DNA of 21,557 bases from a virus. Below are positions 4,000-18,976 of the stretch, piece by piece. A program made the position numbers and the translations under genes. Within the stretch, counting starts at the first letter, position 1. Each line of letters starts with the position of its first letter. The DNA lies in the IMG/VR virus record IMGVR_UViG_3300010396_000108, positions 1 to 21,557 of that record; one strand, written 5' to 3'. The notes under the pieces were generated by a model. It did no database searches. It was given only the letters and a program-made list of their open reading frames with translations, and had not been told where the DNA came from.

Positions 4000-4400
4000 A
4001 GCGCGCCGCCCCGAAGCAAGAGCACGGCATCCAGAACGAAATCCGCAACGCGCTGTGCGACGAAGGTATGTTCTTCCGCGCCAATGTCGGCACGGCGTGG
4101 GCGTCGAACGACATCGTCAAGCTGGCGGACGGCTCGCTGCTGCTGCGCAACCCGCGCCCGTTCTCGTCGGGCCTGCCGGCGGGCTTCGCTGACCTGTTCG
4201 GCGCCGTCGAGGTCACCATCACGCCAGACATGATCGGCCAGCGTGTCGCCGTGTTCACGACCATCGAGTGCAAGTCATCGAAGGGCGCGGCGCGGATGAA
4301 GCAAGGGCAGTTCGCCAGTGCCGTCATCGGCATGGGCGGCCGGGCGGGGTTCGCGCGCAGCGTGGACGACGCGATGCGCATCGTGCGGGGTGAGGCATGA
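3996..4400 (+). CDS. VRR-NUC type PDDEXK nuclease
   Basis: The 134-residue protein has the VRR-NUC core: a helix with Q13/E15 near the N-terminus, GLPAGFAD ending in the metal ligand D66, IECKSSKG with E91-x-K93, then KQGQ with Q105. This is the length of stand-alone phage VRR-NUC proteins. Related domains cut branched DNA (as in FAN1) or act as structure-specific nucleases, and a role in resolving replication intermediates is plausible beside the helicase and primase. It has ATGA junctions on both sides. Confidence 0.85.
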   Translation: MKRAAPKQEHGIQNEIRNALCDEGMFFRANVGTAWASNDIVKLADGSLLLRNPRPFSSGLPAGFADLFGAVEVTITPDMIGQRVAVFTTIECKSSKGAARMKQGQFASAVIGMGGRAGFARSVDDAMRIVRGEA

Positions 4401-4726
4401 CGCCCGGCGAGTTCGCCCGCCGCCGGGCACGCATCGAGAACGAGCGCGGCATGCCGGGCCGCATCGTCGGAAAGGGGTTTCGGCGCAAGGCGCTGCGCGC
4501 GCTGGTGAAGCGGGCCGGCGCAATCCGCATCGTGCCGAACGGCCGTGACGTCGGATACCGCCTGCCGAGTGGCGGCGTCGCCTGCGAAAAGCAGAGATTC
4601 CCGAACTACGCCGCCGCATGGGGCGAGCTGCAGCGAATCGGCAAACACGCCTCGCACTCGCACATCCCCGTCCGCGTGTACCTGTGCGACTGGTGCGGCG
4701 GCCACCACCTGACGAGCCGCCAGTGA
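4397..4726 (+). CDS. Phage protein with C-terminal CxxCGGHH zinc-knuckle motif
   Basis: This 109-residue protein has a very basic N-terminal half and ends YLCDWCGGHHLTSRQ, with C97 and C100 followed by two histidines. The same ending occurs in many small phage proteins of unknown function and probably binds zinc. It is coupled to the nuclease gene by ATGA. It may bind nucleic acid, judging only from the charge and the metal motif. Confidence 0.75.
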   Translation: MTPGEFARRRARIENERGMPGRIVGKGFRRKALRALVKRAGAIRIVPNGRDVGYRLPSGGVACEKQRFPNYAAAWGELQRIGKHASHSHIPVRVYLCDWCGGHHLTSRQ

Positions 4727-4734
4727 GGGCGACG

Positions 4735-4923
4735 ATGGACAGCAGAACCGCAGAGCTTGACGCGCTGATGCGTGCCCACAAGCTGACCGCGCGACAGGCC
4801 GGCACGCTGATCGGCCGCGCGCCGAAGACCGTGCGCAACTGGCGCGGCAGCATCGGCCGCACGATCCCGCAGCAGGCGCTTGAACTGCTGCGCATGAAGC
4901 TCACGAAAGGGGCTTCCGAGTGA
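4735..4923 (+). CDS. Small helix-turn-helix DNA-binding protein
   Basis: I chose ATG 4735 because GAGGG (4725-4729) lies 5 nt upstream; a GTG at 4723 in frame is less likely. The 62-residue protein is almost entirely one Cro/XRE-like helix-turn-helix: KLTARQAGTLIGRAPKTVRNW (residues 16-36), followed by a short helix. It has no dimerisation or cleavage domain, so it resembles Cro or a replication accessory factor more than CI. Its stop overlaps the GTG of the primase-helicase gene, so the two are made together. It could be one of the regulators acting on the promoters in this window, but nothing in the sequence ties it to a site. Confidence 0.75.
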   Translation: MDSRTAELDALMRAHKLTARQAGTLIGRAPKTVRNWRGSIGRTIPQQALELLRMKLTKGASE

Positions 4924-7274
4924 CCGAGTTCGACATCAAAAGGCAGTTCGAAGAGGCGATGCGCGCCGCCGGCTTGACGCCGAAGTTCAAGGGCGGCGAG
5001 GGGATCGAAATCGGGCAGAACCCCAACGGCAAGCCGTGGCGCTTCCACATCGACGGCGACGGCAGGGGCACGCGCAATGGCTGGTATGTGCTGTTCGCCG
5101 ACGGTGTGCCGGCGGGCGAGTTCGGCAGCTGGAAGACGGGCGAGGTTCATACGTGGTGCGGCGCCAATCCCGAGGACATCACGAACGAGCAGCGCGACGC
5201 GATGCGGGCGCGGATCGAGGCGGCGCGCAAGGAACGCGAGGCGCACCAGCGCAAGCGTGAGGGTGACGCGGCGAAGACGGCGAATGCGCTGTGGAATAGT
5301 GGCGTTCCCGTGTTCGGCGACGATCACCCGTACCTGCGCCGCAAGGGCATCGTGTCGCACAACCTGCGCGCGGTCGCTTGGCCGGTGCGCAACCGCGACG
5401 GCGAGGTCTTCCGGCACATCGAAGACACGCTCGTCGTGCCGATCATCAACAAGGCCGGCGGCATCGTATCGCTGCAGGGCATCTTCCCTGCGGTCGACGA
5501 TGGTTTCGGACGTGACAAAGACTTCCTGCTGGGCGGCAAGAAAAAGGGCTGTTTCTTCGTCATCGGGCGCCCGACGCCGGGCCAGCCGATTACATTCTGC
5601 GAGGGCTACGCGACCGGCGAGACGATTCATCAAGCGACCGGCTGGTGCGTGGTCATCTGCTGGGACGCGTATAACGTGCCGCACGTCGTGCAGCTGTGGC
5701 GCGAAATGTGGCCGGGCGAAAACTTCGTCATCTGCGGAGACAACGACCAGTGGACGACGAAGCCGGTCGACAATCCCGGCAAGACCTATGCCGAGCGCGC
5801 CGCGGCGGCGTCGAATGCGCGCGTCGTGATCCCGCAGTTTGCGGACCTTGAAGACCATCCGACCGACTTCAACGACCTGCACGCGGCCGAGGGTATCGAG
5901 GCCGTGCAGCGGCAGGTGTTGCCGCAGCTGGCGCCGGCAGACGAGCCGGAACCCGACGCGACGAAGTCGACAGGCATGGCGACGACGGCGCCGGGCGAAT
6001 ACTACGCGCCGCGCCACCTGACGCATTTCGACAATTCGACGTTCCCCGACTTCGACGGCAAGGGCAACCCGCGATCCACCGCGCGCAACATGGCCGAGCT
6101 GTGCCGGCGCACGGGCATCATCGTGCGCTACAACGTCATCAAGAAAGACCTTGAAATCCTTGTGCCCGGCCTGCAGTCGAGCATCGACAACGAAAAAGAG
6201 GTCGCGCTGTCGGAGCTGATGGACTGCATGCGCCGGGTCAATATGCCGACCGGCAGCACCGAAGCGAACCTGTGCGCGCTGGCCGAGGCGAACAAGTACA
6301 ACCCGGTCGCGACGTGGATCGACCACAAGACATGGGATGGCGTTAGCCGCCTCGCCGCGTTCTACGACACCGTGTGGGAGAAAGACCCGACGATACTCCC
6401 CGACGGCCGTGTTCTGAAAGACATCATGATGCGCAAGTGGCTGATTTCTGCCGTCGCCGCGGCGTACGAACCGAACGGCGTCGTCGCGCGCGGCGTGTTG
6501 ACCTTCGTGTCGAAACAGAACCTTGGCAAGACGCGATGGGCAAAGCAGCTGGCGCCGCGCGATCTTGGCGTGATCGCCGACGGCGAAGTGCTGAACCCTG
6601 CCGACCGCGACAGCGTCAAGCGCGTTGTGTCGAAGTGGATCGTTGAGCTTGGCGAGGTCGACGCCACCTTCCGCAAGGCAGACATCGCCGCGCTGAAGGG
6701 CTTCATTTCCCGTAGCGAGGATGAATTGCGCAGGCCCTACGCGCGCACCGAATCCAAGTACGCGCGAAGAACGATTTTCTTCGCCAGCGTCAACGACGAA
6801 CGCTTTTTGCACGACGCAACGGGCAATACCCGCTGGTGGACTATCCACGCAACCAAGCTGGGCGAGCCGTCGCAGCTGGACATGCAACAGGTGTGGGCCG
6901 AGGTCAAAACGCTGTACGACGCGGGCGAGTCGTGGCACCTGACGCAGGAAGAGGTCGACGCGCTCAACGGCCATAACAGCGAGTTCGAAGCGCTGTCGCC
7001 CGTGTCGGAAATGATCGACCGCAACTTCGATTGGGATGCGCCGCGTTCGCAGTGGAAGCATGCGCTGCGCGCGACCGAAATCGCGATGGCCGCGCACATC
7101 GACCGACCGACGAAAAAGGACGTGAACGAGGCAGCGGCCTACGTGGTGAAGCGTTACGACGTGATGACCACACGCATCGGCAAGGAGCGCAGCAAGGCAT
7201 GGCTGATGCCGCCGCGCACCGTGCCGCTTGCGGTGAAGACGACCGAGCCGGAGCCGGCGGGCCTGCCGGTATGA
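4920..7274 (+). CDS. Primase-helicase: Toprim domain fused to VapE-like P-loop ATPase
   Basis: GTG 4920 has a strong AAAGGGG site (4906-4912) 7 nt upstream and overlaps the previous stop. The 784-residue protein has an N-terminal region with GKPWRFHIDGDGRG and GEFGSWKTG, then a Toprim domain with CEGYATGE (227-234) and CGDND (272-276). The C-terminal half is a VapE-like ATPase: IDHKTWDGVSRL, the Walker A-like SKQNLGKTRW (531-540), the Walker B-like WIVELGE (573-579) and TGNTRWW (634-640). Proteins of this build prime and unwind DNA at phage or satellite origins, so this is the central replication protein. Its origin could be the repeat array at 13400-13635. GC content and codon use match its neighbours. 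Confidence 0.9.
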   Translation: MTEFDIKRQFEEAMRAAGLTPKFKGGEGIEIGQNPNGKPWRFHIDGDGRGTRNGWYVLFADGVPAGEFGSWKTGEVHTWCGANPEDITNEQRDAMRARIEAARKEREAHQRKREGDAAKTANALWNSGVPVFGDDHPYLRRKGIVSHNLRAVAWPVRNRDGEVFRHIEDTLVVPIINKAGGIVSLQGIFPAVDDGFGRDKDFLLGGKKKGCFFVIGRPTPGQPITFCEGYATGETIHQATGWCVVICWDAYNVPHVVQLWREMWPGENFVICGDNDQWTTKPVDNPGKTYAERAAAASNARVVIPQFADLEDHPTDFNDLHAAEGIEAVQRQVLPQLAPADEPEPDATKSTGMATTAPGEYYAPRHLTHFDNSTFPDFDGKGNPRSTARNMAELCRRTGIIVRYNVIKKDLEILVPGLQSSIDNEKEVALSELMDCMRRVNMPTGSTEANLCALAEANKYNPVATWIDHKTWDGVSRLAAFYDTVWEKDPTILPDGRVLKDIMMRKWLISAVAAAYEPNGVVARGVLTFVSKQNLGKTRWAKQLAPRDLGVIADGEVLNPADRDSVKRVVSKWIVELGEVDATFRKADIAALKGFISRSEDELRRPYARTESKYARRTIFFASVNDERFLHDATGNTRWWTIHATKLGEPSQLDMQQVWAEVKTLYDAGESWHLTQEEVDALNGHNSEFEALSPVSEMIDRNFDWDAPRSQWKHALRATEIAMAAHIDRPTKKDVNEAAAYVVKRYDVMTTRIGKERSKAWLMPPRTVPLAVKTTEPEPAGLPV

Positions 7275-9749: not shown

Positions 9750-10552
9750 TGGACATGCGTATTACCGACGCAGGGCGCAGGATGCTGGACGAGCGGCAGA
9801 GCCTCGCGGCGATCAATTCCGGCGAGCTGGGCGAGCTGTGCCGGCGAGCGTATGAGCGCGAAGGAATCGACGGCGCAAGGCGATACTTCGTCGTCAGCAC
9901 GCCGGACGGCGTCACCGAGCGCGGGCGGTCGCTGTATGCGCAACTGCTCGCCGACATGCAGCGCGTGCGAGGCGGCGGGAGCCGTGGCAAAACGTGGATC
10001 GACCCGCGGGTGTGCACCGCTGACTCGATGCTTATCGGCATCGCTGGCGCCAAGCGCGCAGGCAAGGACACGCTGGCGCGCGAGCTGGCGATCATGACCG
10101 GCCTGCAGCGCGACAGCTTCGCCGCGCCGCTGCGCGAGTTCGTCGCGCGCCTGCTGGGCTGGACGATGGGCGAGCTGGAAGCGCGTAAGGAATATCCCGT
10201 CGACTGGCTGGACGGCGTCACGCCGCGGCACATGATGCAGACCATCGGCACCGAGTGGGGCAGGGACACGATCCACGGCGAACTGTGGGTGCGGTCGCTG
10301 ATGCAGCGCACCGCGGCGCGCGGCGCGATCATCTCCGACGTCCGCTTCCCGAACGAGGCGCAAGCCATCCGCGAGCGCGGCGGCATCGTGCTGAAGGTGA
10401 CCCGCCCGGGCACGGGCACGGGCGACGCGCACATCAGCGAAACGCCGCTGCCGGCCGGGCTGGTGGATGCCGTGATCGAGAACGATTCGACCCCGGCCAT
10501 CATGGCGGGCCGCGCGTTCTTCGCGGTGAACTGCCACTACGGCCGCGCGTAA
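9749..10552 (+). CDS. Deoxynucleoside monophosphate kinase with N-terminal extension
   Basis: ATG 9749 overlaps the previous stop and has GGAGG (9736-9740) 8 nt upstream. The 267-residue protein has about 93 N-terminal residues of unknown fold (MDMRITDAGRRMLDERQSL onward), then a kinase domain with the P-loop GIAGAKRAGKDT (97-108) and the diagnostic ISDVRFPNEA (195-204) seen in T4-type dNMP kinases. The kinase converts dNMPs to dNDPs to feed phage DNA synthesis. Usual stand-alone forms lack the extension; an internal ATG at 10028 would yield the kinase alone. The call is firm for the kinase and open for the extension. Confidence 0.85.
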   Translation: MDMRITDAGRRMLDERQSLAAINSGELGELCRRAYEREGIDGARRYFVVSTPDGVTERGRSLYAQLLADMQRVRGGGSRGKTWIDPRVCTADSMLIGIAGAKRAGKDTLARELAIMTGLQRDSFAAPLREFVARLLGWTMGELEARKEYPVDWLDGVTPRHMMQTIGTEWGRDTIHGELWVRSLMQRTAARGAIISDVRFPNEAQAIRERGGIVLKVTRPGTGTGDAHISETPLPAGLVDAVIENDSTPAIMAGRAFFAVNCHYGRA

Positions 10553-12878: not shown

Positions 12879-12904
12879 CCGACCACGACAGCCAGCACCA
12901 GCAG

Positions 12905-12942: not shown

Positions 12943-12979
12943 AAAGGTGTTGACAGGTTACGCGCGTAACATTTAGGAT
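12943..12979 (+). promoter_or_regulatory. Operator-bearing promoter before the 13038 gene
   Basis: AAAGGTGTTG (12943-12952) leads into a consensus TTGACA -35 (12950-12955). The 14-bp palindrome GTTACGCGCGTAAC (12957-12970) fills the 18-nt spacer, and the -10 is TAGGAT (12974-12979). By consensus match this is the strongest promoter in the window. Confidence 0.78.
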
Positions 12980-13343: not shown

Positions 13344-13363
13344 TGTGGGTAAGGTTATCCACA
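13344..13363. promoter_or_regulatory. DnaA box in an inverted pair
   Basis: TTATCCACA (13355-13363) is a perfect consensus DnaA box. TGTGGGTAA (13344-13352), two bases upstream, is its inverted partner with one mismatch to the consensus. The pair borders the repeat array, which suggests that host DnaA takes part in opening the region. Confidence 0.65.
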
Positions 13364-13399
13364 TATTGAACTAAGAAGATCCGAGCAGTACAGGAAGGC

Positions 13400-13635
13400 G
13401 GGTACAACTATGCCGAGTTGTACCCTTGTACCCGCCCCTTGTACCCGCCTTAACTCTATGATTCCTATAAGAAATGGGTACAAGGGTACAACTATATAGA
13501 GAAAAACGGGAATGGAGATAGAAGGGGAGTAGTAGAGAGCCTATATGGAAAAGTCGTGCTCACTTGTACCCTTGTACCCTTTTTATTTGTAAATCATCAA
13601 CTTAGGGCGGGTACAAGGTCCGCCGAGTTGTACCC
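13400..13635. repeat. Iteron-like array: ten copies of TTGTACCC/GGGTACAA
   Basis: Exact copies start at 13400, 13476, 13484 and 13609 as GGGTACAA, and at 13418, 13426, 13439, 13564, 13572 and 13628 as TTGTACCC. Three pairs are head-to-tail 16-mers without a gap (13418-13433, 13476-13491, 13564-13579). The ends carry the same composite unit, GGCGGGTACAA then GCCGAGTTGTACCC (13397-13425 and 13606-13635). I noticed only one other exact copy in the window (15580-15587, inside a gene). The pattern is that of binding sites for an initiator or partition protein. Confidence 0.8.
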
Positions 13636-13653
13636 TATCCCCGCACGGGGATA
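13636..13653. promoter_or_regulatory. 18-bp palindrome abutting the -35 of the next promoter
   Basis: TATCCCCG-CA-CGGGGATA ends one base before the -35 TTGACG at 13655. No T-run follows, so it is not a terminator. Its position just upstream of the -35 is that of an activator site; this is an inference. Confidence 0.5.
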
Positions 13654-13654
13654 A

Positions 13655-13682
13655 TTGACGGTACGCGCGTAACTGGTAACGT
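13655..13682 (+). promoter_or_regulatory. Operator-bearing promoter of the activator and lysis unit
   Basis: TTGACG (13655-13660), a 16-nt spacer containing TACGCGCGTA (13662-13671) and TAACGT (13677-13682). It lacks the AAAGGTG box but has the palindrome at 13636-13653 upstream. The transcript would start near 13689 and read into the Mor-like gene. Confidence 0.62.
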
Positions 13683-13711: not shown

Positions 13712-14146
13712 ATGACCGAGCAGCTACCCGACAGCGTTGCGCAGATCGCCGAAGTGATCGGAACCGAAGCCGCCTTGCAGCTGGTGCGGCAGTGGCCGAG
13801 AACGAAAGTCCCCTACTCGTCGGGCGGCCGGTGCGCGATCTATGTGCCTTCAACGATGCCGGCGTCGCACCCGATTGCCACGATCATCGGTCACGACAAG
13901 GCCGCGCTGCTGTCGCGCAGATTCGGCAATGAAATGCTGTTCCCGGCGAAGTGCGACGCGCACGTGTTGCGCAGGGCCATCCTCCTCGCGCTGGATGCCG
14001 GGGCGTCGACGGACATGGTTTCACGGACGCTAGGCGTCACGCCGCAGCATGTGCGCCGCATTCGCCGGGCGAACATTTCTGCAATTACCGCCTGCCGCCG
14101 CAACGGCAACGATTCGCGCATGAACAAGAGCGCGAATCACGCATGA
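13712..14146 (+). CDS. Mor-like transcription activator
   Basis: The 144-residue protein has the layout of the Mor/Mga-type phage activator domain. LPDSVAQIAEVIGTEAALQL (5-24) and IYVPSTMPASHPIATIIG (43-60) precede FGNEMLFPAK (71-80) and a C-terminal helix-turn-helix GASTDMVSRTLGVTPQHVRRI (97-117). In phage Mu, Mor switches on middle transcription. Here the gene comes just before the lysis and packaging genes, so a role as late activator is likely. The Shine-Dalgarno site is poor and the leader only about 20 nt. Expression is probably held by the operator in its promoter. It overlaps the next gene as ATGA. Confidence 0.72.
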   Translation: MTEQLPDSVAQIAEVIGTEAALQLVRQWPRTKVPYSSGGRCAIYVPSTMPASHPIATIIGHDKAALLSRRFGNEMLFPAKCDAHVLRRAILLALDAGASTDMVSRTLGVTPQHVRRIRRANISAITACRRNGNDSRMNKSANHA

Positions 14147-15523: not shown

Positions 15524-15975
15524 AGCCGGGCCTGATGCTCGCCATCCTGATCGCGTGGACGCTCGCCGCGTTCACCGTCGGGTACAAGGTGCGCAGCTTC
15601 AGCGCCGAAGCCGCCGCGCAGACCGTGCAGGCGGCCACGCAAGAGGCGCGCATCGACGCGGTGACCGATGCCCGCGCCACCGACCACGGCAACGCGCAGG
15701 CGGCCGTGCAGTCCGAGCAATCACACATCGACCGCGCGACCGCGCAGGCCGGTTACTTCGCACACCTGAAACAGGACATCGACACGTATGCGCGCACACG
15801 CTCGCCGAACCTTGCTGAAGCTCACGCTTGTGTGCGTGGGGATGCTGGCCCTGACTTCCTGCGCATCTGGCGCGCGGCCAATGCCGGCGCCTTCAGCGAC
15901 CAAGCCAGACATCACGATCCCGCAGTCGCAGCTTCAGCGGCCGGCGGACCTGCCGCAGCCAGCGAGCGGCAGTGA
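15520..15975 (+). CDS. Rz-like inner-membrane spanin
   Basis: GTG 15520 overlaps the previous stop. The 151-residue protein starts with a transmembrane anchor (about 5-22, LMLAILIAWTLAAFTVGY), followed by a helical periplasmic region rich in Ala, Gln and charged residues (up to about 95). This is the layout of i-spanins, which fuse inner and outer membranes after peptidoglycan is cut. The call is supported by the lipoprotein gene nested in its 3' part in the +1 frame. A GGGTACAA at 15580 in this gene encodes part of VGYKV and is probably chance. Confidence 0.82.
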   Translation: MKPGLMLAILIAWTLAAFTVGYKVRSFSAEAAAQTVQAATQEARIDAVTDARATDHGNAQAAVQSEQSHIDRATAQAGYFAHLKQDIDTYARTRSPNLAEAHACVRGDAGPDFLRIWRAANAGAFSDQARHHDPAVAASAAGGPAAASERQ

Positions 15976-16869: not shown

Positions 16870-18976
16870 CGCCGCCCACTACGCGAACCCGCGCGGCATC
16901 GTGCACGCGATACGCGCCGGCCTCGCAATGCTGCAGCCGCCGCCCGACCTTGCGCCGTCGGAATGGGCCGAGTCGAAGGACGGCATTCGCATCCCGACCG
17001 GCAACGCCGTGCCCGGCCCGTACCGCGTCGCGAATGCGCCATACCAGCGCGAACCGATGGATCAGTTCGTCAACCCGGACTGCTACCGCGTCACGCTGAA
17101 GTGGGGCGCGCAGGTCGGAAAGACGCTCACCCTGTTGTGTGTGCAGGGCTACGCCATCGCCATGCGCCCGCGGTCGCAAATGATGATGCAGCCGTCGCAG
17201 GGCGACGTGCAGACGTGGTTGGAAACCAAGTTCAACCCGCTGGTCGAGTCGTCGCCGACCATCGCGAAGCGCATCGCCAAGCCGCGCGGCCGAGACGGCG
17301 TCAACAATCAGAAAATGAAGTCGTACCCCGGCGGCTTCCTGATGATGGCGTGGGCCGGGTCGCCGAAGACGATGCGCGGCCGATCCGCGCCGTTCATCGG
17401 CTGCGACGAAGTCGACGGCTACCTGAGGACCGAGGAAGGTCACCCCGTCGGCCTGCTGTGGCAGCGCTCCGCGACCTTCGGCGACGAGCGCTTCCTGTTC
17501 GAAATCAGTACGCCCACCGTGAAGGGCGCCAGCTACATCGACGAGTCGTGGGAGGCCGGCGACCAGCGTCGATTCTTCGTGCGTTGCCCGTGCTGCAATC
17601 TGGCGCAGGCGTTGCGCTGGGAAAACGTGACGTGGATCGGCCGCCAGTCAACCAGCGTCGACACACACGACGAAGACCGCCGCGACTACGACGCGCACAA
17701 GCCAGAAACCGCCGGCTACGCGTGCGAGGGCTGCGGCGAAATCTGGAACGACGGCCAGCGCTCCGCAGCCATCCGCAACGCCGAAGCGCAGGGCGCCGGC
17801 TGGCGTGCCGCGAAGCCGTTCAAGGGGCACGCCAGCTATCACCTGTGGGAAGCCTATTCGCTGTTCCGCAAGCTGGGCGACATCGTCCGCGACTATCTGG
17901 ACAAGCTGCGCACCGACGACATTCAGACCTTCGTCAACGTGTCGCTGTCCGAGGTCTACGAAGTGCAGGGCGATCAGGCCGACCCGGACGCGCTGGTCGC
18001 GCGCGCCGAGGCGTTCGCCGCGCCCGTTCCGATGGGTGGCGTGTACCTGACGGCCGGCGTCGATATGCAGATGGACCGTCTGGAATGCGAGATTGTCGCT
18101 TGGGGCGAGGGTGAGGAATCGTGGAGCGTCGACTACCGCGTCTTGTGGGGCGACCCGCTTGCCGGCGACGTGTGGAACGACCTAGACGACTTGCTCGCCG
18201 AGACGTGGCAGCACGAAACCGGCGCGCCGCTTCAGGTCAAGGCCGCATGCTTGGATACCGGCGGCACCACGGGTTACACACAGTGCGCATACGACTACCT
18301 GCGCGGTAAGCAGGGCCGCCGCATCTTCGGCATCAAGGGCATCGGCGGGTTCGGCCGGCCCGTGGTCGAGAAGATGCAGCGCAAACAGTCGGGCAAGAAC
18401 GCGCGCAAAGTCGACCTGTTCAACGTCGGCGTCGGCGAGGCAAAGCAGATCGTCATGCGTCGGCTGTCGAACGAGGTTCCGGGGCCGGGCTATTGCCACA
18501 TCCCGGCGGGCCGCGACGCCGAAGGCGGGCTGTCGCTGGAAGAGTGGTGTAAGCAGATCACCGCGGAAAAGCTGGTGACGCACTACGTCAAGGGCCAGCC
18601 CGTGAGGACGTGGCACAAGCCGGACAAGGCGCGAAACGAAGCGCTTGACTGCCGCGTGTACGCGCTGGCCGCCCTGAAGATCATGCAGCCGTCGTTGCGC
18701 CGCGAGCGCGAACGCATCATGGCGCACCCGCGCGCGAAGGCGATGCTTCAGCCGGAGCGCGAGCGGCACATCGATCCGGAGAGTGCGCTCGAGGTGGTCG
18801 CCGCCGGCCTCGCGCACATCGCCGCCGTCGAGGCCGCCGAGGCCGCAGGCATCAAATACGTCGACGGGCAGGCGAACATTTCTGCAATGGGCGACGCCAA
18901 GCCGTCCGCCGAAACTGTCCGCATCCGTAAGCCCAAGGCATCGCGCCGGGGCAATTGGGTGAATGGATGGAGATAG
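16862..18976 (+). CDS. Terminase large subunit, lambda GpA family
   Basis: The 704-residue protein has the ATPase motor motifs WGAQVGKT (81-88, Walker A-like) and FIGCDEVD (Walker B, D182/E183). A zinc-finger-like set is at C242/C244/C245 and C288/C291. The nuclease half follows, with the metal ligands D401 (AGVDMQ) and D465 (CLDTGG). The length and order match lambda gpA, which cuts concatemers at cos and pumps DNA into the prohead. No motif is missing and codon use matches its neighbours. Confidence 0.95.
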   Translation: MLDAAHYANPRGIVHAIRAGLAMLQPPPDLAPSEWAESKDGIRIPTGNAVPGPYRVANAPYQREPMDQFVNPDCYRVTLKWGAQVGKTLTLLCVQGYAIAMRPRSQMMMQPSQGDVQTWLETKFNPLVESSPTIAKRIAKPRGRDGVNNQKMKSYPGGFLMMAWAGSPKTMRGRSAPFIGCDEVDGYLRTEEGHPVGLLWQRSATFGDERFLFEISTPTVKGASYIDESWEAGDQRRFFVRCPCCNLAQALRWENVTWIGRQSTSVDTHDEDRRDYDAHKPETAGYACEGCGEIWNDGQRSAAIRNAEAQGAGWRAAKPFKGHASYHLWEAYSLFRKLGDIVRDYLDKLRTDDIQTFVNVSLSEVYEVQGDQADPDALVARAEAFAAPVPMGGVYLTAGVDMQMDRLECEIVAWGEGEESWSVDYRVLWGDPLAGDVWNDLDDLLAETWQHETGAPLQVKAACLDTGGTTGYTQCAYDYLRGKQGRRIFGIKGIGGFGRPVVEKMQRKQSGKNARKVDLFNVGVGEAKQIVMRRLSNEVPGPGYCHIPAGRDAEGGLSLEEWCKQITAEKLVTHYVKGQPVRTWHKPDKARNEALDCRVYALAALKIMQPSLRRERERIMAHPRAKAMLQPERERHIDPESALEVVAAGLAHIAAVEAAEAAGIKYVDGQANISAMGDAKPSAETVRIRKPKASRRGNWVNGWR

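Follow-up and report, generated by a model that had tools for sequence, protein, structure and literature searches.

A putative iteron-type replication origin ahead of the late activator gene in a phage with a Toprim-VapE primase-helicase

The subject of this work is a cluster of short repeats (iterons) at about positions 13400-13635 of the IMG/VR virus record IMGVR_UViG_3300010396_000108, a phage fragment of 21,557 bp which was analysed as a complete record and is referred to below as the window. We conclude that this cluster is very probably the replication origin of the phage and that its iterons would be bound by the C-terminal winged helix of the primase-helicase encoded in the same window (4920-7274, plus strand). 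Related phages share the layout, each with a repeat word of its own, so that the origin word and the protein appear to change together. As an origin it would be of a known kind (PriRep/P4), present here in a phage with head genes and lying apart from the initiator gene; we found no earlier description of it in these phages.

Results

Structure of the iteron array

The window contains 11 copies of the word TTGTACCC; ten of them, all exact, lie at 13400-13635 in both orientations (TTGTACCC/GGGTACAA), with a single stray copy at 15580. Shuffled windows contain 0.16 copies on average and 2 at most; the array is far above the chance level. The ten-unit array described in an earlier sequence-only reading of this DNA is thus confirmed, and so are its setting in gene-free, AT-rich DNA (guanine-cytosine (GC) content of about 0.51 versus 0.65) and its three gapless 16-mers of alternating orientation. 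Each 16-mer is a head-to-tail pair of units: iterons 2 and 3 (13418-13433, plus strand), 5 and 6 (13476-13491, minus strand), and 7 and 8 (13564-13579, plus strand). The same exact word scan places the single units at 13400-13407 (iteron 1, TTGTACCC, minus), 13439-13446 (iteron 4, plus), 13609-13616 (iteron 9, minus), and 13628-13635 (iteron 10, plus).

The iterons form two inverted modules, which together make a dyad with 55-nt arms (13437-13491 and 13564-13618) that are 80% complementary and separated by 72 nt; as single-stranded DNA, this element folds much better than its shuffles do (z = -6.2). The only Rfam match, to MIR8562 at 13439-13616, was rejected as an RNA, because it is an artefact produced by the inverted repeat, and at 26.7 bits it is far below the gathering score of 211.

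Covariation of the iterons with the primase-helicase

The primase-helicase carries Pfam Toprim_3 and VapE-like domains and belongs to phrog_2249. Its helicase matches PriRep1 (7pds) in sequence (hmmsearch E 2.1e-33), and the AlphaFold2 model of the protein (mean predicted local distance difference test score of 87.7) matches it in fold (Foldseek E 2.4e-19 over 457 columns). The C-terminal end of the model is a winged helix, with a strand at residues 714-716, helices at 718-724 and 732-746, and strands at 750-753 and 758-763; we propose this domain (residues about 712-766, codons at 7053-7217, plus strand) as the one that reads the iterons.

In 24 phages, the distances between iterons correlated with those between primase C-terminal domains (residues 712-775), with a Mantel r of 0.35 (p 0.0002), and the correlation persisted in partial tests controlling for the helicase domain (0.21, p 0.0006) and for the primase domain (0.32, p 0.0002). 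The reverse partial values were 0.03 (p 0.30) for the helicase domain and 0.05 (not significant) for the primase domain. For the 14 phages in which the array lies beside the late activator gene, the C-terminal domain gave 0.53 (p 0.0006) when the activator was controlled for, whereas the activator gave -0.24 when the C-terminal domain was controlled for. Since the signal of the C-terminal domain survives this control and that of the activator turns negative, it would be the C-terminus of the primase, and not the activator, that reads the array. The covariation and the winged helix of the model support this assignment, and the covariation, together with the arrays found beside initiators (see below), also lends support to the earlier guess that the phage's own primase-helicase recognises the repeats.

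The same place and a different word in related phages

Relatives of the window primase do not keep TTGTACCC. An array-AT-array layout of the same kind occupies the AT-rich gap that immediately precedes the Mor-like late activator gene in Escherichia phage ep3 (GGTGACYA), Burkholderia phage Mica (GGTGACAA) and Pseudomonas phage Persinger (AGTGACCA), all three complete phages, and in Acinetobacter phage Alexa (GGTTGCACT); the tables of these four records, as shown, list no origin. Further words were read from metagenomic sequences (L numbers are our own labels): TGGGACAA in L063, GGGTATGG with CGGGGATA in L039, AGGGTAG in L059, TAGTCA in L061, and GAGTACGG in L018. In seven sequences, namely the window, L039, Persinger, ep3, L059, L061, and L063, no site in the available sequence has a stronger repeated word than the gap ahead of the activator, and in Mica this gap ranks second. 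In L234, five copies of TAGTCCCA fall within 400 bp starting near 12900, about 0.6-1 kb ahead of the Mor-like gene. Among other relatives of the primase, the strongest word lies directly 3' of the primase gene in 24 of 88 loci, as in L050 with eight copies of AGGTGTCA.

Mica (L100) has a second strongly repetitive stretch at 35181-35398, with six copies of CCGTCGCG, in a gene annotated as ice nucleation protein. In L080, 13 copies of CCGGAGCC stand in tandem within 400 bp (4289-4700), far away from the contig's own primase.

The Stenotrophomonas relatives (L223-L229, L231, L019-L038; about 20 kb each) encode a primase about 61% identical and retain genes for the Mor-like activator, holin, endolysin, and a contractile tail. 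No terminase, portal, or capsid gene was detected in them, and the array and the AT-rich gap are both missing. These headless elements look like tailocins, judging by their gene content, and tailocins do not package DNA. The joint loss of array and head genes is consistent with an origin and counts against the array serving late transcription. According to the sequence-only reading, relatives with the same primase that lack the repeats would refute an origin; such relatives do exist in the literal sense, but they are these headless elements, and many head-bearing relatives retain an array whose repeat sequence differs.

The same word beside other initiators

Retrieval by the DNA word alone found 13 viral contigs, ranging from 32 to 66% GC, that contain the 16-mer TTGTACCCTTGTACCC. 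Seven of the 13 (L004, L005, L006, L008, L009, L012, and L016) code for a distant homologue of the primase, and in most of these seven the array begins within about 200 bp of the primase 3' end. An initiator match was present within 2.5 kb in 12 of the 23 contigs with at least four copies in 350 bp, compared with 1 of 100 contigs with two copies, the latter being loose-pattern matches in viral contigs that are mostly due to chance. The association of the 16-mer with other VapE genes, which the sequence-only reading had suggested looking for, is found, and together with the relatives that share the primase it supports the origin assignment. A blastn search of the array region against phages and a search of 85k bacterial genomes with the strict array pattern gave no match.

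The GGGTACAA iteron also adjoins initiators that are unrelated to each other: Toprim-AAA_25 (L004, L006, L008, L133, L157, and L189), PrimPol or other VapE proteins (L005, L009, and L016), and, in a further contig with at least four copies, a DUF927/Cch-type primase/helicase (L199). In another such contig (L112) the array lies inside a gene with a DnaB_2 domain.

Other elements of the putative origin region

An inverted pair of DnaA-box-like 9-mers, which had been given prominence as a consensus box with an inverted partner, is indeed present at 13344-13363, with a perfect TTATCCACA at 13355-13363 and TTACCCACA, with one mismatch, at 13344-13352. The weight put on it is unsupported, because the box is not conserved in relatives: a perfect TTATNCACA occurs in 1 of 17 equivalent regions, with 0.29 expected. 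The conserved DnaA boxes of a DnaA-dependent origin are thus lacking, and the box is ruled out as a core origin element; on the regions compared, it is a detail of the window phage alone.

Each of the two modules contains one site resembling the consensus for integration host factor (IHF) between its inverted iterons, AATCATAGAGTTA at 13451-13463 (minus strand) and AATCATCAACTTA at 13592-13604 (plus strand), each with one mismatch to WATCAANNNNTTR. Perfect matches to WATCAANNNNTTR number 16 in 31 regions, compared with 0.5 in shuffles. The centre of the dyad (13492-13563) comprises a purine-rich strip and the conserved CCTATATGGAAAA (13540-13552), the element CCTATATnGGAA being found with at most two mismatches in 10 of 33 regions (1.2 expected), with the window copy at 13540.

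The genes of the window run in the order exonuclease, helicase, DNA methylase, Toprim-VapE primase-helicase, Mor-like late activator, holin/lysis, terminase, portal, and the start of the capsid gene, so that its head genes are TerS, TerL, portal, and part of capsid. The activator gene (phrog_836; 13712-14146, plus strand), assigned by its phrog match and by synteny in relatives, adjoins the putative origin. Directly after the array and before this gene lies the palindrome TATCCCCGCACGGGGATA (13636-13653), possibly an operator, which is also found in L018 and L039. The palindrome GTTACGCGCGTAAC (12957-12971) and the related GGTACGCGCGTAACTGGTAACG (13660-13676) stand on both sides of the intergenic region; in L018, four copies of CGCGTAAC lie near 9834, and a related word, GTTACGCGCGTG, is found in L039. 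The L039 array contains more copies of CGGGGATA at 18278-18928.

Discussion

Three other functions of the array have to be considered. Its position immediately ahead of the activator gene, which is syntenic in relatives, is what would be expected of an operator for the Mor-like protein and a transcription hub for the lysis and head genes. We regard this as unlikely: with the primase C-terminal domain controlled for, the iteron word does not follow the activator (-0.24), which rules that protein out as the ligand of the array; many arrays adjoin the primase instead, the tailocin-like relatives retain the activator and lysis genes without an array, and a search for a sigma-70-like promoter inside the array found none. 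A parS-like partition site bound by ParB, serving maintenance of a plasmid prophage, is brought to mind by the ParB-like protein encoded between helicase and primase in Mano, L018, L039, and L234. Neither the window nor L230 has a detected ParB homologue, although the window is a fragment and a ParB may be encoded outside it; arrays occur beside many initiators and the iterons follow the primase C-terminal domain, which makes partition very improbable. We give equally little credence to an origin that host DnaA opens and whose 8-mers are the target of a host protein or another phage protein: the perfect TTATCCACA is 37 nt from the array, but the box is present in 1 of 17 equivalent regions, whereas iterons and IHF-like sites do recur, and the iterons track the phage primase.

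Several observations weigh against an origin read by the primase-helicase. The primase gene is 6.1 kb away from the array, while the origins of phage-inducible chromosomal islands (PICIs) adjoin their initiator genes; both IHF-like sites of the window are imperfect; the corresponding gap in Mano, FoX1, L041, and L223 has a weak exact-repeat word or no significant one; and for 9 of the 23 strong arrays no initiator was recognised close by in the available sequence. The covariation evidence is strong but not conclusive, since the iteron words entered into the Mantel tests were picked by eye from repeat scans and the partial form of the test can be liberal where sequences share ancestry. Cumulative GC skew, proposed earlier as a check, was computed for five relatives and has no turning point at the array. 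The control, the annotated ori of P4, has no turning point either; as the method is blind to that origin, its silence at the array says nothing. An apparent cumulative minimum at the array was spurious, produced because the count began at that point and the net skew was positive, and it disappeared after detrending.

The putative origin shares features with known systems. In Staphylococcus aureus pathogenicity islands (SaPIs), Rep reads downstream iterons through its C-terminal domain (PMC7581432), and SaPI/PICI origins have two opposed iteron sets around AT-rich DNA (PMC6092414). The window likewise has two opposed iteron sets flanking AT-rich DNA, and the proposed initiator has a Rep/PriRep-type AAA+ helicase homologous to PriRep1 (7pds, E 2e-33). 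Unlike a PICI, the window phage is not a satellite, as it carries terminase, portal, and capsid genes; its array combines two modules, each with an IHF-like site, in dyad symmetry, and its putative origin is located 6.1 kb from the initiator gene, ahead of the late activator, and not directly 3' of the initiator as in L004, L005, L008, L016, L050, and others.

As in the P4 alpha protein, Toprim primase, helicase, and a C-terminal DNA-binding domain (predicted in the window protein) are joined in one polypeptide. The P4 record has 8-bp type 1 iterons, TGTTCACC, in both orientations in crr and ori, just as the 8-mers of the window run both ways. In P4, crr directly follows the 3' end of the alpha gene and ori lies just ahead of the late operon, and these are the two positions used by the window phage and its relatives. 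P4 differs in having two separate cis sites (ori and crr), where the window fragment has one cluster and the stray copy at 15580, in its iteron word, and in the Pfam assignment of the helicase (D5_N, Pox_D5, and DUF5906, against VapE-like in the window). In the record of Streptococcus phage Sfi21, a 302-bp non-coding stretch that immediately follows a D5-type primase gene is annotated as an origin, and its opposed AGTAAC/GTTACT repeats flank AT-rich DNA. This layout is like that of the window, although the host genus and the repeat differ and the origin adjoins the primase; the Sfi21 origin also carries the note 'phage inhibitory sequence'.

The computed results, namely the array and its symmetry, its location (next to initiators or in the syntenic gap), and the C-terminal covariation, lead us to infer the following mode of action. 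The C-terminal winged helix of the primase-helicase would bind the GGGTACAA iterons, and the two inverted-iteron modules in dyad symmetry would seat initiator complexes face to face. Melting would be helped by the AT-rich DNA and by a bend at the IHF-like site within each module, after which the same primase-helicase would unwind and prime, with a bidirectional start.

More tentatively, and with clear doubt on our part, iteron and winged helix could act as a specificity cassette that is exchanged while the origin scaffold stays fixed, with all iterons of an origin rewritten in concert with C-terminal changes and GGGTACAA reused by unrelated initiators. The reusing initiators would be Toprim-VapE, PrimPol-VapE, Toprim-AAA_25, and DUF927/Cch, and the selection perhaps comes from origin hijacking or from incompatibility between co-resident phages and satellites. 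Parallel origins, each pairing its own word with a matching C-terminal domain, are a ready resource for the initiator-iteron recognition code, and the same set would be useful for orthogonal replicons and for asking whether satellites hijack phage origins.
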